Shown in pieces: positions 23,903-26,006 of a DNA stretch of 64,000 bases (positions within the stretch are counted from its first letter, which is position 1; each line of letters starts with the position of its first letter). The position numbers were made by a program, and so were the translations under genes. Source of the DNA: Devosia sp. 66-14 (GTDB lineage Bacteria > Pseudomonadota > Alphaproteobacteria > Rhizobiales > Devosiaceae). The notes under the pieces are model-generated. The model was not told where the DNA came from. It saw only the letters and a program-made list of their open reading frames with translations, and made no database searches. Location: contig MKVB01000002.1 of NCBI GenBank assembly GCA_001899085.1, positions 462,054-526,053 of the forward strand, read 5' to 3'.

Positions 23903-25384
23903 ATGGGCACTGTTCACGAATTTCCCAACGTCATCGCCTCCCCGCCGGGGCTCTCCGGCTGGTCGCTGGATGTGCTGCTCGATCAGCCGGATCGACGCGG
24001 GACGGGCGCCACGCGGGGGCAGTCGACATTCCTCACCGGGGTGATCGAAGGCTTTTACGGCCGAGCCTGGAGCCAGCCGCAGCGGGTCGAGATGCTCGAC
24101 TGGATCGCCAATGCCGGCATGAACAGCTTCGTCTACGGGCCCAAGGACGACATCAAGATCCGGGCGCGCTGGCGTGAACTCTACAACGCGGCGGAAGCCG
24201 CAGCCCTCCAGGAGCTGGTCGACGCGGCACGCGCGCGGAAGCTCATTTTCATGGTGGCCATCGCCCCGTGTCTCGATGTCGTCTATTCGGACGCAAGCGA
24301 CCTCGAGGCGCTGAAGCGCCGGCTTGACCAGCTCCTGGACCTCGGGGTGACGCATTTCGCGCTGCTGTTCGACGATATTCCGCGCACCATGATGCCGGCC
24401 GACGAGCGCGCCTTCCCCTCGTTTGCCGCGGCGCAGAGCTATTTCGCCAACGAGGCCTTCCGTCATGTGCGGGCGCGGGCGCCGGGGGCGGCGGTGCTGT
24501 TCTGCCCGACCGAATATTGCGGGGCGTTCGCCGGCCACGACGTGCCGGGCTCGGCCTATCTCAACACCATCGGGGCGGAGCTCGACCCCGAGATCGGGGT
24601 ATTCTGGACCGGGCCGGACATCGTCTCCAAGACCATCACCGCCCAGAGCCTCAGCGAAGTGGGCCGGGTGCTCAGGCGCAAGCCGGTGATCTGGGAGAAC
24701 TTCCACGCCAACGACTACGATATCCGCCGCATCTATGCCGGGCCGCTGGGCGGGCGGCACGCCGACATCCTGCCGCTGATCGACGGCATCATCACCAACC
24801 CCAACAACGAGTTCGAAGCCAATTTCGTGCCGGTGCACACCACCGGGGCGTTCGCTGCGGGGTCGGACGACGAGGCATCGGCCTTCGCGGTGGCGTTGAA
24901 GGCCTGGCAGCCGCGGTTCCGGCTGGCCTTTACCGGGCAGACCGAAACGCTGACGGTGGAGGAAATCCGGCTCCTGGGCGAGCTGTTCTACCAGCCGTTC
25001 CGCTGTGGTCCGCAGGTCGAGGGGCTACTGCAGGCGGCGCGACGGCTGATGAGCCAGAAGCGGCCCGATGTCCGCGATACCGGCTGGCAGGACGGGCACG
25101 AGGCACTGGTGCAGTTCCGCGACCGCATCACCGGGTTGTTCAACCGGATGACCGAGCTCGAGAACCGCGACCTGTTCTATGCCTTCCACCCCTACCTGTG
25201 GGAAGCGCGCGAGGAGATGACGCATCTCGTCACCTATCTCGACTGGCTGGCGGGCGATCCGCCGCGCGGCGCCGAATTCCCCGACAAGGACCGGATCTAC
25301 AACTTCTATCGCCAGGGCTTTACCGTGGCGGTGCAGGAGCTGCTGCCGCGCGACGGCAGCGGGCGCTACCGGCATGGCGCTTGA
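23903..25384 (+). CDS. GH84 beta-N-acetylglucosaminidase (O-GlcNAcase/hyaluronidase family)
   Basis: 493 residues, with no signal peptide, so cytosolic. [12 protein letters not shown] (GFYG at 50-53), YGPKDD, and FALLFDDIP are the core GH84 motifs. Asp157 and Asp158 are the adjacent catalytic pair used in substrate-assisted hydrolysis of beta-GlcNAc via an oxazoline. [19 protein letters not shown] and [11 protein letters not shown] are further family landmarks. The barrel covers about residues 40-330; the rest is a helical region like that after the barrel of human O-GlcNAcase. The operon places it after a sugar importer, so it probably cuts imported GlcNAc oligosaccharides or glycopeptides, although a protein substrate cannot be excluded. 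It overlaps the GNAT gene by 11 bp. Confidence 0.92.
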
Positions 25385-26006
25385 TTTCGGCGGCGGCTAT
25401 CGGCTGAGGGCCGCGCTGGCCGCCGACCACGCGGCGCTCAACCTGGTGTGCCTTCGCACCGGTGACAGCGGCAAGGACGCGACGGTGCGGGAGGACGATC
25501 CGGATCTGCTGGGGCTGATCTATGCGGTGCCGTACCAGGTGTACGAACCGGATTTCGCCTTCGTGGTCGACGGGCCGAACGGGGTCTGCGGTTACATCTT
25601 CGGGGCGCCGGACACGCCAGACATCTACGCCAGGATGGGAGCCGAGTGGTTTCCGCCACTGGCAGCGCGGCTCAGCGATCCAGGGCCGGATGAGAGCCAA
25701 TGGCGGGGCAGCGACTGGGCGCGCCACGCGATCCATCACCCGGAATTCGTCTACCCCGAGGTGCTGCACCGCTATCCGGCGCATGGCCATATCGACCTGC
25801 TGGAGGAGGCGCGCGGCCGGGGGATCGGCCGGCGCGGCATGGAGCATGTGATGGAGAAACTCAGGCGCGCCGGCGCGACGGGGATGCACCTGCAGGTGAG
25901 CCCGGTGAATCGCGGGGCGCAGAGCTTTTACCGCAAGCTCGGGTTCGAGGTGCTGAAGGACCCGGTGCTGCCGCGGCATACGACGTTTATGGTGACGGGG
26001 CTTTAG
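25374..26006 (+). CDS. GNAT-family protein resembling the C-terminal HAT-like domain of O-GlcNAcase
   Basis: 210 residues. [65 protein letters not shown] and [14 protein letters not shown] define a GNAT fold. From memory, human O-GlcNAcase has VCLRTADSGQDG and GVCGYVLGALD at the same places in its C-terminal HAT-like domain. The acetyl-CoA loop here is [10 protein letters not shown], close to the Q/RxxGxG/A consensus, so this bacterial protein could be an active acetyltransferase, unlike the human domain. Its ATG lies inside the GH84 gene in another frame, so the two are translationally coupled but not fused. Confidence 0.88.

Follow-up and report, generated by a model that had tools for sequence, protein, structure and literature searches.

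Two overlapping genes in a 64,000-nucleotide stretch of contig MKVB01000002.1 of Devosia sp. 66-14, here called the window, encode as separate proteins the counterparts of the two parts of animal O-GlcNAcase (OGA): a GH84 beta-N-acetylglucosaminidase of the OgOGA type and, directly 3' of it, a GNAT acetyltransferase of the family that includes OgpAT and the histone acetyltransferase (HAT)-like domain of OGA. We read their surroundings, with somewhat more confidence than doubt, as an operon for the uptake and use of amino sugars, in which the GNAT would N-acetylate glucosamine (GlcN) or glucosaminides for the GH84 enzyme and the N-acetylglucosamine (GlcNAc) pathway. The two genes are:

23903 to 25384, plus strand: GH84 beta-N-acetylglucosaminidase, OgOGA type, with catalytic barrel and stalk (Pfam PF07555, PDB matches)
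25374 to 26006, plus strand: GNAT acetyltransferase of the OgpAT / OGA HAT-like family, with intact P-loop (147-152), H139 and N179 (phmmer, Pfam, alignment)

The first open reading frame (ORF), of 493 aa, carries the Pfam NAGidase domain (PF07555) at 3.6e-76, and its D157-D158 pair, already named in the preliminary description, aligns with the catalytic DD of OgOGA and human OGA. In phmmer searches of PDB chains, OgOGA matches residues 42-492 at 7.2e-167 and human OGA matches at about 1e-98, with human stalk chains covering residues 347-487, so that both the catalytic DD and the stalk of an OgOGA-type enzyme are present. The true start may lie downstream of 23903, because homology begins only at about residue 42 and the frame is open for just 3, 10 and 12 codons before the match in the OgOGA-type relatives L124, L102 and L045. 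The 11-bp overlap with the GNAT ORF in another frame (25374-25384) is as first described, and of 13 such pairs measured, 11 have an in-frame ATG from which the two genes overlap by 8-11 bp.

The second ORF is a GNAT by Pfam, and against all PDB chains it matches OgpAT of Oceanicola granulosus (3zj0, 2.3e-69), which gives its predicted fold, SsAT of Streptomyces sviceus (4bmh, 2e-29), residues 715-910 of human OGA (1.7e-12) and one more OGA chain (2.7e-9), with GNATs outside the family scoring only 0.0025 or weaker; used as query in turn, the human segment retrieved OGA chains, 3zj0 and 4bmh only (E <= 0.001). The chain at 2.7e-9 is labelled just O-GlcNAcase, and we take it to be from Trichoplax partly on the strength of PMC12494797. 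The kinship that had been proposed, with OGA HAT-like domains rather than with unrelated acetyltransferases, is therefore borne out in both directions, and barrel, stalk and HAT-like domain of human OGA all find a match in the two proteins. The two 12-residue motifs named in that proposal ([12 protein letters not shown] and [12 protein letters not shown]) are present, both outside the acetyl-CoA P-loop, which was rightly described as intact (residues 147-152, RGRGIG). In an alignment of 64 bacterial and two animal rows (human and Trichoplax), the equivalents of His135, Asp137 and Asn175 of OgpAT are kept as H139, D141 and N179, and H139, N179, T29 and the last P-loop glycine (G152) are identical in 64/64 bacterial rows, as are D18, Y54, G73, W92, P135, H137 and F185. 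At the positions of Thr25, His135, Asn175 and the last P-loop glycine the human domain has M, K, D and A, and Trichoplax has S, E, R and a gap, in a row that is divergent and of unsure alignment. The Devosia GNAT is thus intact in its acetyl-CoA and putative base residues; acetyl-CoA binding is known for its relative OgpAT alone and is predicted here.

The core of the observation, adjacent OgOGA-OgpAT genes and their likeness to human OGA, has been in print since Rao et al. 2013, together with acetyl-CoA binding by OgpAT (PMC3814719). In O. granulosus (PDB 2xsa, 3zj0), as in Devosia, the GNAT gene stands directly downstream of an OgOGA-type GH84 gene; the organism differs, and to what the available text of that paper describes the window adds an importer context, a SIS gene and a regulator, and its relatives a kinase. 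Human and Trichoplax OGA unite in one chain what in Devosia are two ORFs in different frames, and they have lost the acetyl-CoA and putative base residues (the Trichoplax row being poorly aligned); a 2025 paper confirms the lack of acetyl-CoA binding by animal HAT-like domains (PMC12494797). SsAT belongs to the same GNAT family and to another clade of the GNAT tree, and the stretches L146, L150 and L157, which hold relatives of it, gave no GH84 match.

The genes around the pair are:

19182 to 19919, minus strand: SIS-domain protein of the PRK02947 / UPF0309 family, relative of NagS (SCO4393) (NCBIfam PRK02947 1.8e-83)
19921 to 20694 (readable to 20778), minus strand: GntR-UTRA regulator, divergent from the operon (Pfam UTRA 2.9e-30, GntR 1.1e-15)
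20860 to 22167 (readable from 20818), plus strand: solute-binding protein of a CUT1 sugar ATP-binding cassette (ABC) importer (Pfam SBP_bac_1 2.6e-36)
22182 to 23075, plus strand: CUT1 importer permease A (Pfam BPD_transp_1 3.8e-16)
23059 to 23898, plus strand: CUT1 importer permease B (Pfam BPD_transp_1 3.4e-21)
26162 to 31178, minus strand: convergent operon of ROK, ATPase, binding protein, permease and SDR genes, a ribose-type ABC importer (Pfam)

The stop of permease B lies 4 bp upstream of the GH84 ORF, and with a binding protein and two permeases of the CUT1 type recognised by Pfam, the earlier placement of the pair within a sugar-importer operon stands. The SIS and GntR genes diverge from the run binding protein-permease-permease-GH84-GNAT, which is faced by the ROK-ATPase-binding protein-permease-SDR operon on the opposite strand. 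The binding protein of the CUT1 importer reaches NCBIfam NgcE at 2e-22, below the cut-off, and among PDB chains one named XylA at 9e-33 and the chitin-oligosaccharide protein NagB2 at 1.4e-15. The SIS protein matches 3cvj (6.4e-49) and SCO4393 (5.3e-31) in the PDB; it is 32.2% identical to NagS and shares eight of ten listed NagS site residues. We considered and rejected it as a true NagS, that is, a GlcNAc-6-phosphate dehydratase, as this identity is below the level of proven orthologues, 58.7% or more (PMC12680351). Elsewhere, the genome has two NagA genes that pass the cut-off and NagK-like genes that do not reach theirs.

More distant relatives of the GNAT were drawn from genome-sample searches and plasmids (10 of 29 plasmid records with a GNAT were taken in). 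We examined 65 stretches, three of which (L065, L066, L067) are GH84 loci without a GNAT, leaving 62 GNAT loci; twelve of these were missed by ORF picking and counted from tblastn (L044, L047, L055, L062, L071, L099, L101, L104, L107, L108, L111, L112), a 63-residue GNAT fragment with a stop in G495 was left out, and L151 came from a GH84 search and is thereby biased towards GH84. As controls served 40 stretches of 16-17 kb from GNAT-carrying genomes, some used twice; the marker queries were taken from the GNAT loci themselves, and all counts were repeated without the source loci. CUT1 permeases occur at 29/62 GNAT loci versus 3/40 controls (27/60 without source loci), ROK at 22/62 versus 1/40 (20/60), GntR at 18/62 versus 1/40 (17/61), SIS at 17/62 versus 0/40 (16/61), GH84 at 13/62 versus 0/40 (12/61), Gfo/Idh/MocA at 8/62 versus 0/40 (6/60) and BadF at 4/62 versus 0/40 (1/59); the ATPase (33/62 versus 11/40; 32/61) and SDR (19/62 versus 7/40; 18/61) are also common among controls. 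The links to sugar uptake, regulator and SIS gene stand as enrichments, and those to kinase, nagB and nagA are single gene orders. The clade of the Devosia GNAT (27 loci: SIS 17, GH84 13 plus L099, BadF 2) takes in every SIS and every GH84 locus, with zero of either among the other 35 loci; the eight Gfo/Idh/MocA loci all lie outside this clade.

Several single gene orders add detail. In G505 a BadF gene follows the GNAT at about 31 bp, and its product is nearest in the PDB to 1zc6, a probable N-acetylglucosamine kinase (2.1e-32), and reaches NagK_SO3507 at 6.3e-28, below that profile's cut-off; in G781 the BadF gene follows at about 10 bp or less. A plasmid of Falsirhodobacter algicola has, on one strand, ATPase-BadF-ROK-DMT-GNAT (38.5%)-nagB-amidohydrolase, with nagB over the TIGR00502 cut-off and the amidohydrolase nearest NagA, below cut-offs. 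Importer, GNAT, ATPase, ROK and BadF stand together in Duffyella gerundensis, and ROK and Gfo/Idh genes lie near the GNAT on an Agrobacterium plasmid; no sugar context was found beside the GNAT on annotated Mesorhizobium and two Streptomyces plasmids. At L048-L051, all of family f161, an SDR gene precedes the GNAT (4/4); in L048 and L050 the two end a run of Gfo/Idh-like (judged from sequence), xylose-isomerase-like barrel, cupin and PEP-hydrolase-like genes, present in part and interrupted in L049 and L051, which suggests another acceptor sugar in that branch. In L043 (scanned) and L110 (same clusters), genes for a xylose-isomerase-like barrel and a DUF993 protein lie near the GNAT and SIS genes; L110 also has genes for an oligopeptide-type binding protein and for a peptidase of the M20 type. 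Metal-importer genes 3' of the GNAT in L045 were judged incidental.

How far the pair extends was assessed in genome samples. The GNAT (E <= 1e-10) occurs in 4/190 genomes of the class, 29/297 of the order and 23/61 near relatives, and GH84 of any type in 4/190, 2/297 and 14/61; single-sequence contig scans found a GNAT 91-92% identical in three named Devosia records (two Devosia genomes and one Devosia metagenome-assembled genome). Both GH84 genomes of the order sample (G000, G314) have the pair, and in G004 of the class sample GNAT and GH84, the latter of another type (31%), are on separate contigs. With the Devosia GH84 as query, 9/398 genomes of the phylum matched at 1e-20, the OgOGA type only in the Devosia genome and G781, and 3/394 genomes of G781's family at 1e-40. 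A GH84 gene was counted where at least 50% of its length was covered, as at 13/62 GNAT loci, where importer permease, GntR and SIS are present in 13/13. At L099 (G496), which falls under this limit because the contig ends inside GH84, the GH84 3' end adjoins the GNAT, and counting it as paired brings the total to 14/62. Among the 17 judgeable OgOGA-type GH84 loci (L206, L209 and L210 included), which come from families f1 and f24 of the class, the GNAT is next door in 15, L099 among them. Adjacency thus reaches beyond close relatives, to f24 (the family of G781 and G912) and the published Oceanicola case (PMC3814719). A fixed pairing, however, is not borne out: 48/62 GNAT loci have no GH84 beside them. 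At L043, L046, L106 and L110 the GNAT is close to a SIS gene, and in three of these four loci a GntR gene separates them; at L042 and L105 (G396, G490) it directly follows the SDR gene of a ROK/ABC/SDR operon; and at L102 (G493) both operons stand in tandem. G499 carries importer-GH84, with GntR and ATPase, at L206 and SIS-GNAT at L106, two separate loci of one genome, which shows that the module can be split into its halves.

From gene order, protein families, intact residues and recurrent neighbours we infer a route whose acceptor, imported sugar, cytoplasmic site, order of steps, flux and SIS reaction would be the following. The CUT1 importer would take up an oligosaccharide or glycoside that contains GlcN or GlcNAc; in the cytoplasm the GNAT, with acetyl-CoA as donor, would acetylate glucosamine or a terminal glucosaminide at its free 2-amino group; GH84, requiring the 2-acetamido group, could then free GlcNAc; a BadF-type GlcNAc kinase (in the operon of two relatives, elsewhere in the Devosia genome) and NagA/NagB would process it further; and the SIS protein would act on an amino-sugar phosphate. 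Acetyl transfer to GlcN or GlcN oligomers is proposed from gene context alone, and the joint amino-sugar role suggested in the preliminary description is, on the same ground, probably the best-supported function of the pair. The rationale is chemical: catalysis assisted by the substrate's 2-acetamido group is general for GH84, therefore a free glucosaminide should be no substrate, and an amine-capping acetyltransferase would make it cleavable. For human OGA, cleavage by anchimeric assistance of this group is documented (PMC10636738).

There is precedent for such coupling. An acetyltransferase of Clostridium acetobutylicum, GlmA, was reportedly described by Reith and Mayer in 2011. In the fungal RmNag of Rhizomucor miehei, a GH3 enzyme with a GNAT region, the GNAT region acetylates GlcN and (GlcN)2-5, and acetylation is required for cleavage of (GlcN)2; the same paper cites acetylation before glucosaminidase cleavage in C. 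acetobutylicum (PMC4680927), and an acetylated glucosamine route needing a transacetylase is described elsewhere (PMC11378808). For SsAT, He et al. suggest that the acceptor is a small molecule (PMC3919268). RmNag and GlmA resemble the Devosia pair in coupling an acetyltransferase to a beta-N-acetylglucosaminidase to make glucosaminides cleavable, demonstrated for RmNag and proposed here, and RmNag differs in having a GH3 instead of a GH84 enzyme. It is a working likeness with no family tie apparent, because its structure 4ZM6 is not among the 19 PDB matches of the Devosia GNAT at E <= 0.01. Among the matches listed in mostly open-access literature on glucosaminide N-acetyltransferases, O-GlcNAcase, GH84-GNAT and Devosia, the text available states no amino-sugar acceptor for the OgpAT family.

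A number of observations weigh against an amino-sugar role. The binding protein is nearest to the chain named XylA and to no GlcNAc binder; SIS homologues at 25.7-35.7% identity to NagS, a range that takes in the Devosia protein, had no NagS activity (PMC12680351); three of the four BadF loci supplied the BadF queries; nagB (1/62 versus 0/40) and nagA-like genes (1/62 versus 1/40) were found, among the GNAT loci, only at their own source loci and drop to 0/61 each without them; and the GNAT loci are related to each other, with 19 family labels, some perhaps one family under two names. GH84 stands without a GNAT at L206 (G499) and L210 (G1180). A value of 5 mM, weak binding if correct, is printed for the acetyl-CoA Kd of the Oceanicola protein (PMC12494797), and He et al. 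do not exclude peptides as acceptors of SsAT (PMC3919268). Finally, sugar markers are absent within 6 kb of the GNAT at 27/62 loci, and divergent members may therefore use other acceptors.

This last point, together with the many GNAT loci lacking an adjoining GH84, the Gfo/Idh/MocA loci outside the Devosia clade and the position of the GNAT in L048 after xylose-isomerase-like barrels and a cupin around a Gfo/Idh-like gene, would fit a GNAT acting on another small amine (galactosamine, kanosamine, an amino acid or a detoxification target) with GH84 a mere operon neighbour. We regard this as possible and rather doubtful, given the recurrence of SIS, GH84 and BadF partners within the clade of the Devosia GNAT and of the GNAT beside 15 of 17 OgOGA-type GH84 genes. 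A protein (lysine) acetyltransferase regulating the importer, GH84 or kinase of the operon appears unlikely: proteins are frequent GNAT substrates, Naa50 and other N-terminal acetyltransferases are among the best-scoring chains beyond the family (0.0025-0.0093), the fungal Ngs1 couples a GH3-like sensor to a histone-acting GNAT (PMC5063960), and the peptide acceptors left open for SsAT would suit it, but the acceptor site of OgpAT and SsAT is narrow or occluded and tunnel-like (PMC3814719, PMC3919268), and sugar markers lie within 6 kb at 35/62 loci. That the pair serves a bacterial O-GlcNAc protein-modification system, GH84 stripping the cell's own proteins with the help of the GNAT, has in its favour the OgOGA type of the enzyme and its closeness to human OGA; we hold it to be very improbable, since the pair sits in an importer operon, no OGT gene is among the scanned genes of 17331-31178 (a genome-wide search for OGT was not made), and, according to Rao et al., reversible intracellular O-GlcNAc was not detected in bacteria (PMC3814719).

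The suggestion that the animal fusion descends from such a bacterial gene pair is allowed by the trees and not demonstrated by them. In the GNAT tree (66 rows), all 13 GH84-linked rows, L099 and OgpAT form one clade of 28 (support 100/99), and the animal HAT-like rows, on very long branches, fall outside it in the best tree; constraining them to fall inside lowers the log-likelihood by 5.13 units (p-AU 0.334), and constraining human alone lowers it by 7.78 (p-AU 0.218). In the GH84 tree (28 rows; L122 and the duplicates L152-L154 left out), human OGA joins the OgOGA-type enzymes in a clade supported at 100/99, within which its position is weakly supported (83/45); two AU tests on this tree gave p 0.227 and 0.284. 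The row nearest to human by path, with the highest identity (47%), is the GH84 of Deinococcus psychrotolerans, with no GNAT annotated beside it, and the Thermobaculum OGA is without an acetyltransferase domain (PMC4683255). In the same tree, L124, from the same-genus genome G499, groups with L151, from a different family (92/85), a hint that the GH84 operon may have moved horizontally. Tentatively, and with more doubt than confidence, we suggest that the animal HAT-like domain derives from a bacterial catabolic glucosamine/glucosaminide N-acetyltransferase and not from a histone acetyltransferase, the fusion preserving a bacterial operon that made amino sugars cleavable, with acetylation lost and the shell kept for binding.

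Two further features of the window were recorded. Between the convergent GNAT and SDR genes, 26024-26149 holds a 40-nt inverted repeat, 95% complementary, with 46 nt between the arms and an RNA fold far stronger than shuffles (z -8.1); its 19-nt core has no second copy in the window with up to 3 mismatches allowed, and the repeat is a terminator acting in both directions or else a palindromic element of the dispersed kind. At 8633-10704, after an opposite-strand gene (7867-8457), class II tRNA-synthetase-like and radical SAM genes (Pfam) lie in tandem, which we take to be EpmA/EpmB-like; their relatives lie near the GNAT in L106, and as part of its context they were judged unrelated.

The available text of the structure papers leaves the acceptors of OgpAT and SsAT unidentified (PMC3814719, PMC3919268), and the animal HAT-like domain is termed a pseudo-enzyme of unknown function (PMC12494797). 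The gene neighbours now point to amino sugars, taken up as food, as the likely substrates of the acetylating half. The gene context names a short list of acceptors, namely glucosamine, chitosan oligomers and glucosamine 6-phosphate, and also offers a reason for the pairing with GH84, and therefore both the function of the bacterial proteins and the ancestry of the human domain become testable by simple assays.

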